64,000 bases of DNA, taken from positions 620,001 through 684,000 of the forward strand of contig NZ_AP025592.1 in the NCBI RefSeq assembly GCF_023169965.1, in the 5' to 3' direction. Of this stretch, positions 1 through 6,811 are shown in pieces (the first letter of the stretch is position 1; every line of letters begins with the position of its first letter). The notes beneath the pieces are model-generated. The model did no database searches. It saw only the letters and a list, made by a program, of their open reading frames with translations, and was not told the origin of the DNA. The position numbers were made by a program, and so were the translations under genes. Origin of the DNA: Anaeromyxobacter paludicola (GTDB lineage Bacteria; Myxococcota; Myxococcia; Myxococcales; Anaeromyxobacteraceae).

Positions 1-648
1 GATCAAGAACCCGCTGGCGGGGCTCTCGGGCGCGCTCGAGCTCCTCGCCGAGGACCTCGCCGCCTCGCCGCGGCAGGCCGAGATGGTGGGCGAGATGCGC
101 CACCAGGTGGCGCGGCTCGGCCACACCATGGAGAGCCTCCTCAGCTTCGCGCGGCCGCCGAAGGCGCGCCTGCGCACCACCGACGTGAACGCCACGCTCG
201 AGAAGGTGCTCTTCCTCATCCGCCAGCAGCGCAAGGCGGCGTCCATCGACGTGCGCCCCGAGCTCGGGCCGGGGCTCCCGGCGGTGCTGGCCGATCCGAA
301 CCAGCTCGAGCAGGTCTTCCTCAACCTCTGCCTCAACGCGTGCCAGGCGATGAACGGGGAGGGCGCGCTCACCGTCCGCTCGTTCCTCTCCGAGGAGCGC
401 GTCACGGTGGAGATCGCCGACACCGGCCCGGGCATCCCGGCCGACCTGCGCCCGCACCTCTTCAAGCCGTTCTTCACCACGAAGCGCGAGGGCAACGGGC
501 TCGGGCTCGCCATCAGCGCGCGCATCGTGGCCGAGCACGGCGGCAACATCGGCTACCGCTGCCCACCGGGCGGCGGGACCGTCTTCGCCATCACCCTTCA
601 GCAGGCGCGGCCAGGGCAGGGCCCGGAGCGCGCCACGGAGCACGCCGC

Positions 649-652
<4 letters not shown>
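1..652 (+). CDS. Sensor histidine kinase, NtrB-like, C-terminal part (5' end outside window)
   Basis: Only the transmitter half is present. The reading frame is open from the first bases, which encode IKNPLAG, the part of the H-box just after the phospho-accepting His, so the His itself lies immediately upstream of the window. The HATPase domain follows with an intact N-box (NLCLNACQAM), G1 box (DTGPGIP) and G2 box (GNGLGLAI). It should autophosphorylate and pass phosphate to the response regulator encoded next. The stop overlaps the next start as ATGA at 649-652, so the two are translationally coupled. The input domain and stimulus cannot be seen. Confidence 0.93.
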
Positions 653-2022
<1,370 letters not shown>

Positions 2023-2059
2023 GCCGCGCCTGCGCCGCCGCCGACGCGGGCCGCCGGGA

Positions 2060-4432
2060 GTGCGGGCGGTGACGCCGCGCGGGTGCCCGTCCGGCCTCGC
2101 TCGCGTCGCGCTCGCCCTCGCCGCCCTGCTGGGCCTCGCCTGGGCGCCGGTGCTCCTCGGCGGCGCCTGGGTGCAGCGGGACGCGCTGCGCTACATGCTG
2201 CCGGCCTGGCAGGTGGCGTCGCGGGCGCTCGCGGCGGGCCGCTGGCCCGAGTGGATGGACGGGGTCGGCTTCGGGGCCGCCTTCGCCGCGAACCCGGTGC
2301 ACGCCGTGGCGACGCCCCTCGGCTGGCTCGCCGCCGCGCTGCCCGGCCCGGGCGGGCTCGCGGCCTGGTCGGTCCTCCACCTCCTCGTGGCGGGGCTCGG
2401 CGCCGCCGCCTTCGCGGCCCGGCTCGGGGCCGCGCGCCTGGGCGCGCTCTTCGCCGGGGCCAGCCTCGCGCTCGGAGGGTACGCCGGCTCGGTGCTGGTG
2501 AACGGGCTCGGCCCCGCCATCGCCTGGACGCCCTGGGTGGCCTGGGCGGCGGAGGGGCTCGCCGCAGCCGCCGGGCAGGAAGGGCCGCACCGGCGCCGCG
2601 CGCTCGCCGCCGCCTCCGCCTGGCTCGCGGCGGCCCTCGCCTTCCAGCTCTCCACCGGCGAGCCGCTCTGCGCCCTCGGCGCGGCCTACCTCGCCGGCGT
2701 CGTGCTCCTCGCGCGGAGCCCGCGCCGGCTCGAAGCGCTCGGGGCCCTGGCGGCCTCGGGCGCCGCGGCCCTCCTCCTGGCGGCCGTCGCGGTGCTCCCG
2801 GCCGCCGCGCTGCTCGCCGGGAGCTCCCGCCTCTCGGAGCGGGGCGCGCAGGCCGGCAGCTGGGCGCTGCACCCGCTGCGGCTCGTCGAGCTCGTCTGGC
2901 CGGGCGCGCTCGGGGATCCGGCGGGGCAGGGGTGGCTGGCGCGCGCGCTCGCGCCGGCCCCGGGCGGCGGCGAGCCCTTCTGGTCCCTCCTGCTCCACGC
3001 CGGCGCGCCGGCGCTGCTGCTCGCGGCCTGGGCCGGACGGGAGCGGCGGCTGCGCGGCCTCCTCGCCGGGTCCGGCCTGCTCCTGCTGCTCGCGCTCGGC
3101 GCCCACACACCCGTCTGGCCGGCCTGGCGCGCCGTCTTCCTCCCCGAGCAGCTGGGGCGCTACGCGGAGAAGCACGTCTTCGGCGCGCTCGTCCTCTGGT
3201 CGGCGCTCGCGGGAGTCGGGTTCACCCGCTGCTTCGAGGAGCGCCGCGCCGGGAGAGGGCTGCGCGCCGGCGCGTGGGCGGCCGCCGCGGGGCTCGCCGC
3301 GGCCGCGCTCGGCCTGGGCGCGCTCCGGCCGGTCGCCGCCGGCTGGGTGGCGGCCCGGGCGCAGGCGCTGGCGCTCCCGCTCGACGCCGCCGGCGGGGTC
3401 GAGGCCGCGGTCCGGGGCGGGCTCGCCGGCGCCGCGGGCGCGGCGGCGTTCGCGGTGGCGCTGGGGCTCGCAGCCCGGGCGCGCCTGGGCGGCCTCGCGG
3501 CGGGGCTCGCCGCGGCCGGGGCGCTCCTCCCGTCGGTGGGGCTCGTCCGGTCGGCCGTGCTGGTCGCGCCGCGCGCCCTCGTGGAGAGCCGGCCGGCGGC
3601 CCTCGCCCCGATCCCGGCGAGCCCCGGCCGGCCGCCGCCCCGGCTCATGCGGCCGGAGGGGTTCGCGATGCGCACCCGCGTCGAGGACGGCGCCGACTTC
3701 GCGCGCCTCTTCCGCGAGGCGCTCGAGCCGAACGTGCCCGCCAGCTTCGGGGTGGCGGCGCTCCCGGGGTTCGAGCCCTCGGAGAGCCGGCGCGCCCTGC
3801 GCTTCTGGGCGACCGTCTTCCCGCGGATGACCTGGGAGTCGCTGACGCGGCTCTGCGGCGTCGAGTGGGTCTACGTCCAGCGGCCCATGTCGGAGGCGAC
3901 GGGGCTCCCCGCGATCGCCGCCGGACCGGACGGCTGGAGCCTGCAGCGGGCGCCGGGGGTGCGGCCCCGGGCCTTCGTGACGCCGCGCTGGGCGCGGGCC
4001 GCGACCGAGGACGAGGCGCTCTCGCTGCTGGCGGCGGACGGGCGGGAGGCGGACCCGGCGCTGGTGGTGCTCGCCGGGCCGGGACCGCTGCCGCCCGGCG
4101 GCGCGGAGGGGCCGCTCGTGCCGTGCGAGGCGGCGAGCCCGGAGCCGGAGCGGGTGGAGGTGCGCTGCGAGGCCCCGCGGGGCGGCCAGCTGGTGCTCCT
4201 CGACGAGCTCGCCGACGGGTGGACCGCCGAGCTCGACGGCCGCCCGGCCCCGATCGCGCTCGCGGACGGGCTCTTCCGGGCGGTGCAGGTCGAGCCCGGC
4301 CGGCACCGGGCGGTGTTCCGGTACCGCACGCCGGGGCTGCGGCTCGGGGCCGCGATCTCGCTCGCGGCCTGGGCGGCCTGGGGGCTGGCGCTGACGCGGC
4401 TGCGCCGGAGGGGGCGCGCCGCGCCGGGCTAG
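2060..4432 (+). CDS. YfhO-like polytopic membrane protein (copy 1)
   Basis: 790 aa with many hydrophobic helices and a soluble C-terminal domain. The N-terminal signature after the first helix ([11 protein letters not shown], then [10 protein letters not shown] and FAANPVHAV) is shared with the gene at 7750 and is typical of the bacterial YfhO membrane family, whose studied members take part in glycosylating cell-wall polymers or lipids. The C-terminal part carries an ELDGRPAPI...FRYRTPG region. A GTG nine bases downstream (2069) is an alternative start with better spacing from GGGAG. The stop shares a CTAG with the stop of convergent rpoH. The substrate cannot be inferred. Confidence 0.8.
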
Positions 4433-5349
4433 GCGGCCGCGCGGTCGTCGATCTCGACCGGCTTGCCGTCGGTGGGCCAGTCGATCTCGGCGGCCAGCGT
4501 CTGCAGCTCCTCGCGCAGCTTCTCCTTGGCGCGGATCTCCAGCTGGCGGGCGCGCTCGCGGGAGAAGCCGAAGTGCTCGCCCAGCTCCTTGAGCGTGAGC
4601 GGGCGGTCGCACATGACGCGCTGCTCGATGATGAACCGCTCGCGCTCGTCGAGCCGCGCCAGGGCCGCGGCGACGCGGCCGGAGACGATCTCCTGCTCCT
4701 GCGCGCCGGAGAGCTCGTCGTCCTGCTGGGGGCCCTTGCTGGCCACGAAGTCCACGTGCGTCTGCGTGCCGTCCTCGCCGAGCGGAGCGTCGAGCGACAC
4801 GTCGCGCCCGTCCATCCGCTGCTCCATCTCGTGCACCTCGCCCGTCTTCACGTGCAGCTTGCGGGCGACCTTGTCGGCGTCGCGGCCGTCCGACCCTTCG
4901 CCCTGCTCGACGCTGTGGCGGTCGAGCTCGCGGCGGGTGCGGGCGAGCGAGAAGAACAGCTTTCGCTGCGCCTGGGTGGTGCCGAGCTTCACGAGCGACC
5001 AGGACTTGAGGATGTAGTTCTGGATGTAGGCGCGGATCCACCAGACCGCGTAGCTGATGAGCCGGATCCCCTTGGCCGGATCGAACTTCTGCACCGCCTT
5101 CATGAGACCGATGTTGCCCTCCTGGACCAGGTCGGGCATGCGGAAGCCGTAGGAGCGGTACTCGTGCGCCACCTTCACCACGAAGCGCAGGTTGGCGGTG
5201 ACGAGCCGGTGGGCCGCGCGGCTGTCTCCCTTGCGCTGGTACTCGCGCGCGAGCGCCTGCTCCTCCTCGGCCGAGAGCAGCGGGAACTGGTTGATCTCGG
5301 CCAGGTAGAGATCGAGGGAGGTGATGCCGTTCTGGGTGGTACGCTTCAT
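4429..5349 (-). CDS. rpoH: RNA polymerase sigma-32 (heat-shock) factor RpoH
   Basis: 306 aa, close to the usual RpoH size. Region 2 is clear ([19 protein letters not shown]), and the RpoH box [10 protein letters not shown] at about 128-137 separates RpoH from RpoD. A C-terminal region 4 HTH follows ([19 protein letters not shown]). It directs transcription of heat-shock chaperones and proteases. The start ATG is preceded by GGAGG with good spacing. A -24/-12 sigma-54-type promoter lies about 36 bp upstream, so the gene may be under RpoN control. It converges with the YfhO-like gene, and the two stop codons overlap. Confidence 0.95.
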
Positions 5350-5384: not shown

Positions 5385-5400
5385 AGCAACCCGTATGCCA
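5385..5400 (-). promoter_or_regulatory. Sigma-54 (-24/-12) promoter for rpoH
   Basis: Read on the minus strand the sequence is TGGCATACGGGTTGCT. It matches the consensus TGGCACG-N4-TTGCW at the GG and GC dinucleotides and has exact spacing. Transcription would start about 12 bp past the GC, leaving a leader of roughly 25 nt that still holds the GGAGG ribosome-binding site. It has not been tested, and a weak sigma-70-like pair further upstream cannot be excluded. Confidence 0.6.
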
Positions 5401-5473: not shown

Positions 5474-5593
5474 CCCTGTAACTTGGAGCCCATAGTTTTT
5501 ACAGGGTCCGCCAAAAACCTCGACCCAGCGGGGTTTTTAGCCTGTCGTTTTTTCAGGGTGCAGCGAACCTATCGGGATCCCTGCCAAAAAAAC
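5474..5593. repeat. AT-rich island of inverted repeats sharing a T-tract-CAGGG motif
   Basis: GTTTTTACAGGG (5495-5506) and GTTTTTTCAGGG (5547-5558) are near-identical direct copies. CCCTGTAAC (5474-5482) and CCCTGCCAAAAAAAC (5579-5593) are inverted copies of the same motif. They pair as CCCTGTAA/TTACAGGG (17-nt loop) and as T6-N-AGGG/CCCT-N-A7. Between them AAAAACC (5513-5519) pairs with GGTTTTT (5532-5538). T-tracts follow several stems, so the island could act as transcription terminators or an attenuator, or be the remnant of a small mobile repeat. Confidence 0.55.
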
Positions 5594-5690
5594 TGTGGCT
5601 CGCCCCCTTGCCTGGAGGGCGGGCCGTTCCCATATTCGCCTAGATCGTCGGGTGGATGCGGCGCTAGCGTCTCCATTGGAAGGTGAACGA

Positions 5691-6422
5691 GTGTCCCAGC
5701 GAGACGCATTCGAGGCTGCCCCCGCGCAGCACCTCGAACCAGAACCGGACGGTGAGGCAGAGCGGCGGCTGCAGCTGCGCGGCAGCCAGCTCGGCTTCGT
5801 GGCGCACGAGATGCGCAACCCGCTCTCCACCGCGCTCTGGAGCGCGGAGCTCCTCGCCAAGCTGACGCCCGAGGACCGCGGCGGCGCGCGCGGGGAGAAG
5901 CTCGCCGGCATGTGCCTGCGCTCGCTCAACCGGCTCAGGCACCTCGTCGAGGACCACTTCCTGTCCGAGCGGCTCGCCGTCGGCGGGCTCGCCGTGCGGC
6001 TCGACCCGGTGCCGCTCCTGGAGCTGGTCGAGGCGGTCGCCGCGCGCTCCCCGGGCGCGCCGCCGGAGGTGCGGGTGGCGGCCGACCTCGCCGCCTGGGC
6101 CGACCGCGGCCTGCTCGAGCGGGCGGTGGACGGCATCCTGTCGGCCGTGACCCGCGAGGGCGCGACCGCGAAGGTGGAGGGGGCGTCCGGCGACGGCACC
6201 TCCTCGCTGCGCTTCTCCGGCGCCCCGGTACCCGGGGAGGCGCTGGAGGAGCCGCACAAGGGCTCTCCCTCGGATCCGACGGGGCGGGCGCTGGCGCTGG
6301 TGATGTCGAAGCGGGCGGTGGCGGCCATGGGGGGACGCCTCGCCCTGGATCAGGGAGCGCTGCTGCTCGAGCTCCCGTCACGAGACCTGCCGGCGGAGAT
6401 CGACCGGCAGGAGGGACACTGA
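5691..6422 (+). CDS. Histidine-kinase-like protein with degenerate ATPase domain
   Basis: 243 aa from the GTG at 5691, chosen because GGAAGG precedes it; an in-frame ATG-less extension to 5595 lacks such a site and runs into the hairpin island. The dimerisation H-box is intact (HEMRNPLS, His about 39). The C-terminal half has the length of a HATPase domain but lacks its signatures: the N-box position reads RAVDGILSAV with no Asn, no DxGxG is seen, and the G2 position reads GRALALVMSK. It may be a phosphotransferase of the ChpT kind or a pseudokinase. A lone receiver follows 8 bp downstream and is the likely partner. Confidence 0.7.
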   Translation: MSQRDAFEAAPAQHLEPEPDGEAERRLQLRGSQLGFVAHEMRNPLSTALWSAELLAKLTPEDRGGARGEKLAGMCLRSLNRLRHLVEDHFLSERLAVGGLAVRLDPVPLLELVEAVAARSPGAPPEVRVAADLAAWADRGLLERAVDGILSAVTREGATAKVEGASGDGTSSLRFSGAPVPGEALEEPHKGSPSDPTGRALALVMSKRAVAAMGGRLALDQGALLLELPSRDLPAEIDRQEGH

Positions 6423-6430
6423 CCCCCCCT

Positions 6431-6811
6431 ATGCGCTCGCGCGTCCTCGTCGTCGACGACGACCCCGACATCCTCGACGCCATCTGCGACATCCTCGACG
6501 CCGAGGGGTACGACGTCGCGCGGGCGCGCCACGGCGCGGAGGCGCTCGAGCAGGTGATGCGCCGCCGGCCCGACCTCATCCTGCTCGACCTGATGATGCC
6601 GGTCATGGACGGGCCCACCTTCGCGCGGGAGCTGCGGAGCCGCCGCCTCGACGGCATCCCCATCATCGTCATCTCCGCCGAGGGGAACCCGGCGCGGGCG
6701 GCGAGCGTCCAGGCGAGGCGCTACCTCGCGAAGCCCTTCGACATCGAGGTCCTGCTCGCCCAGGTGGCCGACCTGGTGCACGGCGCGGGGGCCGACGCCG
6801 CGTCGCCCTGA
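6431..6811 (+). CDS. Single-domain response regulator (stand-alone receiver)
   Basis: 126 aa, a CheY-like receiver with no output domain. The acidic pocket VVDDDPD, phospho-acceptor Asp in LILLDLMMP, conserved Ser in VISAE and Lys in LAKPFD are all present, so it should be phosphorylatable. It lies 8 bp after the kinase-like gene with the degraded ATPase domain, as in phosphorelay modules. Its output would be by protein interaction; no target is visible. A Pro-coding C-tract directly precedes the ATG in place of a good ribosome-binding site, suggesting coupled translation. Confidence 0.9.
   Translation: MRSRVLVVDDDPDILDAICDILDAEGYDVARARHGAEALEQVMRRRPDLILLDLMMPVMDGPTFARELRSRRLDGIPIIVISAEGNPARAASVQARRYLAKPFDIEVLLAQVADLVHGAGADAASP

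Follow-up and report, generated by a model that had tools for sequence, protein, structure and literature searches.

The window, that is, the whole stretch of 64,000 nucleotides of Anaeromyxobacter paludicola DNA that was analysed, carries a kinase-like gene (5691..6422, plus strand) with a GTG start and a product of 243 aa, here named pHK. Its neighbours in the window are an NtrB/NtrC pair, rpoH, a receiver gene, rplC and typA. The rpoH-type sigma factor (4429..5349, minus strand; TIGR02392 over cut-off) is divergent from the pHK gene. Upstream of rpoH lies the motif TGGCA-N6-TTGC (5386..5400, minus strand), which fits the consensus of a sigma-54-type -24/-12 site. On the other side, the pHK gene stops at 6422 and a single-domain receiver of 126 aa (6431..6811, plus strand) starts with an ATG at 6431. 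The CheY-like gene that the first-pass annotation placed 8 bp downstream is thus present. Further downstream is rplC (ribosomal protein L3; 6946..7656, plus strand), which also lies downstream in the family to which the window's genome belongs. This rplC was the only one found in that genome, and in the part of the window that was read it is not grouped with further ribosomal protein genes.

The protein consists of two parts. A helical hairpin (DHp, residues about 22-96) carries H39, E40 and N43, and a degenerate ATPase-like (CA) domain follows at residues about 104-230. The H-box HEMRNPLS occupies residues 39-46 (5805..5828, plus strand, by arithmetic from the GTG at 5691). It had been described as intact, and H39, E40, N43, P44 and L45 are indeed invariant in 26/26 family members. 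In the predicted model, about 20 residues without predicted structure precede the hairpin helices (22-57 and 66-96), and the alpha/beta domain covers about residues 105-229. No sensor domain was found in the 243 aa by sequence, Pfam or model. The sole Pfam match at E up to 10 was PF00512 HisKA (2.7e-7, 31 bits vs. a cut-off of 26.9); HATPase_c was not detected. A ChpT-type Pfam family exists, and it was likewise not matched at E up to 10. In the window's genome, 4/92 HisKA matches, including pHK, are not followed by an HATPase_c in the next 600 b.

To examine the ATP site, we put 26 members of the family into one alignment with 20 canonical kinases from the window's genome, which were chosen from the 92 HisKA matches as lying on the plus strand and having a HATPase_c match. 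The 26 rows do not include the members of G005, G012, G018, G027, G030, G039, G051 and G059; four of these (G027, G030, G039 and G051) we read separately, and by eye they looked the same. The N-box Asn was present in 20/20 canonical kinases and in 0/26 members of the pHK family. The same absence (0/26) was found for the G1 Asp (canonical 18/20), the F-box Phe at both places (19/20 each), the G2 middle Gly (20/20) and the G3 Gly (20/20). The family retained H39, E40, N43 and D138, the Asp preceding the N-box, in 26/26, and the first G2 Gly in 25/26. In pHK itself, the degenerate CA half (6102..6419, plus strand) keeps D138, has lost the N-box Asn, reads GRALAL at G2 and is deleted at G1, F-box and G3.

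These results bear on several statements of the first-pass annotation. The missing N-box Asn and the loss of DxGxG and GxGxG were confirmed. Because no canonical N and G boxes occur in any of the 26 relatives, the suggested pattern of a ChpT-type phosphotransferase or pseudokinase stands. The claim that domain length is preserved was too generous: from HisKA start to HATPase end, canonical kinases have 212-226 residues, while pHK has about 201 (residues 30-230). In the alignment, the shortfall corresponds to gaps common to the family at G1, at the F-box/lid and in the G3 loop. Sequencing error, frameshift or chance can be rejected as the cause of the losses, because the same losses are found in 26 sequences. 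As read from the alignment, the loss of the ATP site is real, old and family-wide, and is no local lesion. A still-active kinase, which would bind ATP in an unusual way or be phosphorylated by the CA domain of a partner, is very improbable when the N-box Asn, the G1 Asp, the Phe at both F-box places, the G2 middle Gly and the G3 Gly are missing in 26/26, even though the prediction of the CA fold is a confident one and the family keeps D138 and the first G2 Gly.

A profile built from the 26 sequences was searched against one phylum set of 195 genomes. Members were found in 34 of them, belonging to four families of one order. All of these score at E 2e-29 or better, whereas the matches that come next lie in long frames and start at 1.6e-22. 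The window's family has members in 22/24 genomes (G006 and G023 are without, and the G023 genome is 66% complete), family f7 in 10/12 genomes seen, and f5 and f8 one each. The most distant member, on a long branch of the tree, is that of f8 (G030), and its membership rests on profile score, H-box and rpoH neighbour. Contig ends truncate the members in G005, G012, G018 and G059. Beyond the phylum, one genome-contig scan with a single protein returned one relative with 73% identity, from a Myxococcales metagenome bin.

Conservation was unevenly distributed over the protein. We found that 23/25 invariant columns fall in the hairpin of the family. T47 and W50 are among them, at H+8 and H+11, and both columns vary among the 20 canonical kinases. 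Their spacing from H39 equals that of A268 and A271 from H260 in HK853, residues that the titles of structure entries present as a rewired interface. R63, G65, R67 and K70 near the hairpin turn are also invariant, while the same columns are variable in the canonical kinases. Over ten species pairs, dN/dS was 0-0.10 for the hairpin and 0.10-0.45 for the CA half. Identity over the same 9 genomes was 73% in the hairpin half of pHK and 85% in that of the neighbouring NtrB; the corresponding values for the CA half were 42% and 73%. Taken together, the dN/dS and identity figures indicate that the phosphoacceptor half is tightly held, indeed nearly frozen, and that the ATPase half is looser, yet still under purifying selection. 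The lost ATP site might also be that of a decaying kinase without function. However, the frame is open in dozens of genomes, both halves are under purifying selection, the hairpin is near-frozen and the place beside rpoH is conserved, so that we give this explanation almost no weight.

For the window protein and a distant f7 relative, AlphaFold gave models with mean pLDDT values of 91.8 and 92.4, respectively. Both models match kinase cores over their length. The best PDB match of the window model was DivL (Z 19.8, 3.5 A, 204 aligned), with HK853 1.4 Z lower; that of the f7 relative was also DivL (Z 18.1, 3.0 A, 203 aligned), tied with CusS at 17.7. DivL is also among the best PDB matches of the family sequence profile. 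ChpT (4fmt, 4fpp) appeared in the Foldseek list for the window model at ranks 41, 42 and 49, with E about 1e-8, and Spo0B was not among the fold-search matches listed. The order of the matches is in accord with the ChpT-type or pseudokinase pattern, with DivL and ordinary kinase cores coming first and ChpT lower. The CA half is predicted to keep a kinase-like fold without an ATP site, and a fold match alone shows no function.

The rank of DivL raises the question of a non-enzymatic binder, which would sense a phosphorylated receiver or pair with a true kinase and act by contact. DivL of Caulobacter is described as having neither kinase nor phosphatase activity (PMC4211667), and a kinase fold without kinase activity is the feature it would share with pHK. 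However, DivL has Tyr in place of His and carries PAS sensor domains, whereas pHK has no PAS and the histidine is present in 26/26. Because this histidine never changes, a DivL-like scaffold is rather unlikely.

We then considered the neighbours. The receiver matched PF00072 at 9e-28 over residues 5-112 of 126, and it has no output domain. Its active-site residues are intact, and the active-site blocks are conserved in 12/12 linked receivers. A receiver is linked to the pHK gene in 12/31 testable genomes, all of genera g1-g4 in the window's family; G009 and G007 belong to these genera and have no linked receiver. In 10/12 genomes that have the linked receiver, the two ORFs share 4 bases, as far as the start codons picked by script are concerned, which argues for joint translation of the receiver and the pHK gene. 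The linked state requires at least four changes on the tree, two of which are forced by well supported branches. Among the searched receiver-less relatives of the window's family, no close copy of the receiver was found elsewhere: the best scored 90.7 bits, whereas linked receivers reach 147 bits or more and paralogues in the window's genome form a background of about 84 bits. An obligatory partnership is rejected, with 19/31 testable genomes having no linked receiver. The first-pass proposal of a relay with the 8-bp neighbour is therefore retained only in part. A canonical receiver does adjoin pHK, but it is not the defining partner; it is absent from other loci while the pHK gene and its hairpin stay conserved, and the constant neighbour is rpoH.

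The rpoH gene divergently adjoins the pHK gene in 32/33 testable genomes (G005 was not testable). The single exception is G010, whose best rpoH match in the assembly is 47% identical and whose pHK gene lies directly after NtrC. A close rpoH (E 1e-100) was present in 107 genomes, most of them without a pHK member, which means that the pairing is one-way. A canonical kinase beside rpoH was considered as the ancestor and rejected: no H-box ORF occurs within 1500 b of rpoH in the fetched f2, f3, f4, f6 and f9 loci, and one canonical kinase was seen, in G023. We also observed a second close rpoH paralogue in the window's genome (73% identity, G000:C1:2862082-2862942), where the profile finds only one pHK member; close rpoH paralogues exist in other genomes of the order as well.

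The sigma-54-type site upstream of rpoH was found in 22 of the 31 loci with rpoH beside the pHK gene (one of them at -8, which is odd), with a chance expectation of 0.007 per 300 b as estimated from the window. Several genomes that have no pHK gene also carry it upstream of their rpoH. The NtrB/NtrC pair adjoins rpoH in most window-family loci that were read far enough. From the frequent sigma-54-type rpoH promoter, the adjacent NtrB/NtrC in most of these loci and the divergent pHK gene, one could imagine a phosphorelay tied to RpoH. The ATP-dead kinase would then route or drain phosphate to set RpoH synthesis or activity, and the receiver would be a later add-on. We regard such a connection as doubtful.

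Other features of the intergenic region are recorded here separately. A perfect 8-bp inverted repeat, CCCTGTAA ... TTACAGGG, lies between rpoH and the pHK gene (window 5474-5506), and TTACAGG-like and CCTGTAA-like blocks recur in this region in several relatives. The pattern CTTG-N18-C(C/G)CA (window about 5614-5640) is upstream of the pHK gene in 11/12 receiver-bearing genomes and in 2/20 other loci scanned. We make no claim of a heat-shock (sigma-32-type) promoter, since the pattern was derived from the same sequences and is absent upstream of groES in the window's genome.

A phosphotransferase would need partners, and we surveyed the window's genome for relay components. It contains 33 hybrid-kinase-like frames. 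The 5 Hpt domains detected are all in frames as long as an HATPase-bearing frame, which are presumably CheA, and a free-standing Hpt was not found in this genome. Both results, like the missing sensor domain, are consistent with the ChpT-type or pseudokinase pattern. Three other kinase-like frames stood out. The first (L157, G000:C1:1001200-1003800, ORF 976-1623, minus strand) encodes a 215 aa kinase-like protein whose H-box, HDVKNPL, is intact and in which N and G boxes cannot be seen; it closely precedes a 475 aa receiver-bearing frame. The second (L159, G000:C1:3699500-3703500, frame 1314-1748, plus strand) is a HisKA-only frame of 144 codons with HDVRNPL and no ATPase domain. The third (L158, G000:C1:998000-1000900, frame 449-2686, plus strand) is HisKA-like with CARDLRGP, without His, at the phosphoacceptor place; a receiver and then a GGDEF-like stretch follow in frame.

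On balance, we consider it somewhat probable that pHK is a cytosolic, kinase-derived histidine phosphotransferase that serves receivers phosphorylated elsewhere. This reading is backed by the retention of H39, E40 and N43 together with the loss of the ATP site in 26/26, by the conserved hairpin, the kinase-like fold, the 33 hybrid-kinase-like frames and the ORF overlap. Two copies would pair through the hairpin into a four-helix bundle. H39 would accept a phosphoryl group from a receiver domain encoded elsewhere, on a hybrid kinase or a response regulator, and would pass it on, or back, to another receiver. The coupled receiver, where a genome has one, may be one of the partners. The ATPase-like half would no longer bind ATP and would only shape docking. 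Several points count against the reading: the linked receiver is missing in 19/31 testable genomes, a hybrid kinase can function with no separate phosphotransferase, both models show monomers and draw on the small alignments that the family itself provides, and ChpT is no top structural match.

Besides, E40 and N43 suit a phosphatase equally well. HExxN, by the E and N of the H-box, is a phosphatase signature, and both residues are invariant in 26/26, whereas the position of N43 is taken by N, T or S in the 20 canonical kinases. The main rival is a dedicated phosphatase, whose hairpin would drain the coupled receiver, or else some other response regulator, of phosphate without ever carrying it on; this activity needs neither a sensor domain nor an ATP site. 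However, the histidine is invariant here, although an enzyme that is purely a phosphatase would not strictly require it. We treat the phosphatase as possible, although not likely.

Few kinase-derived phosphotransferases are known (Spo0B, ChpT, PhyT and RedE). A family with uniform ATP-site deletions, a near-frozen hairpin and rpoH as constant neighbour would represent another origin of the same trick. If pHK is a phosphotransferase, some of the hybrid kinases in this genome, where a free-standing Hpt was not found, would have a relay partner in it. The protein is small enough for purification and has a named neighbour to test. Among the papers listed in our literature search, most of which were judged by their listing, none was seen to deal with the family, and no biochemistry of it was found.

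The phosphotransferase reading has precedents in the T2 transmitter of RedCDEF, PhyT and ChpT. We take T2 of the T1-R1R2-T2-R3 locus to be RedE. In Myxococcus xanthus, also a myxobacterium, the second transmitter of RedCDEF is supplied with phosphate by a receiver and seems unable to autophosphorylate, as stated in PMC3018481. Similarly, pHK is a kinase homologue followed by a single receiver gene, and its sequence, with the ATP site lost, is consistent with the same inability. However, no second kinase and two-receiver protein lie in this arrangement beside pHK, its constant neighbour is rpoH and its receiver is often missing.

PhyT, of the general stress response of Sphingomonas, has a degenerate ATPase domain and passes phosphate on to PhyR from SdrG, a single receiver (PMC5898713). 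It resembles pHK as a degenerate-ATPase kinase homologue with a single-domain receiver in a stress sigma-factor pathway. However, PhyT is anchored in the membrane, has a domain in the periplasm and carries HRxxN, while pHK has no such domain and has HExxN (HEMRN); the nearby sigma factor here is RpoH-type, not EcfG, and there is no phyR-like neighbour.

ChpT, of the Caulobacter CckA-ChpT-CtrA relay, has an atypical Bergerat fold in which no ATP was seen in crystals, and its lid is replaced by extra helix turns, plus an added helix (PMC3433190). The likeness lies in the hairpin, the phosphoacceptor His and a kinase-like fold without an ATP site, which in pHK is predicted, not solved. However, residues 177-201 of the window model have neither helix nor strand predicted, and Pfam sees only HisKA in pHK. 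Our best reading, drawn by analogy, is that the family would work most like RedE, PhyT and ChpT and belongs to none of them, since it fails at least one tested feature of each of RedE, PhyT, ChpT and DivL.
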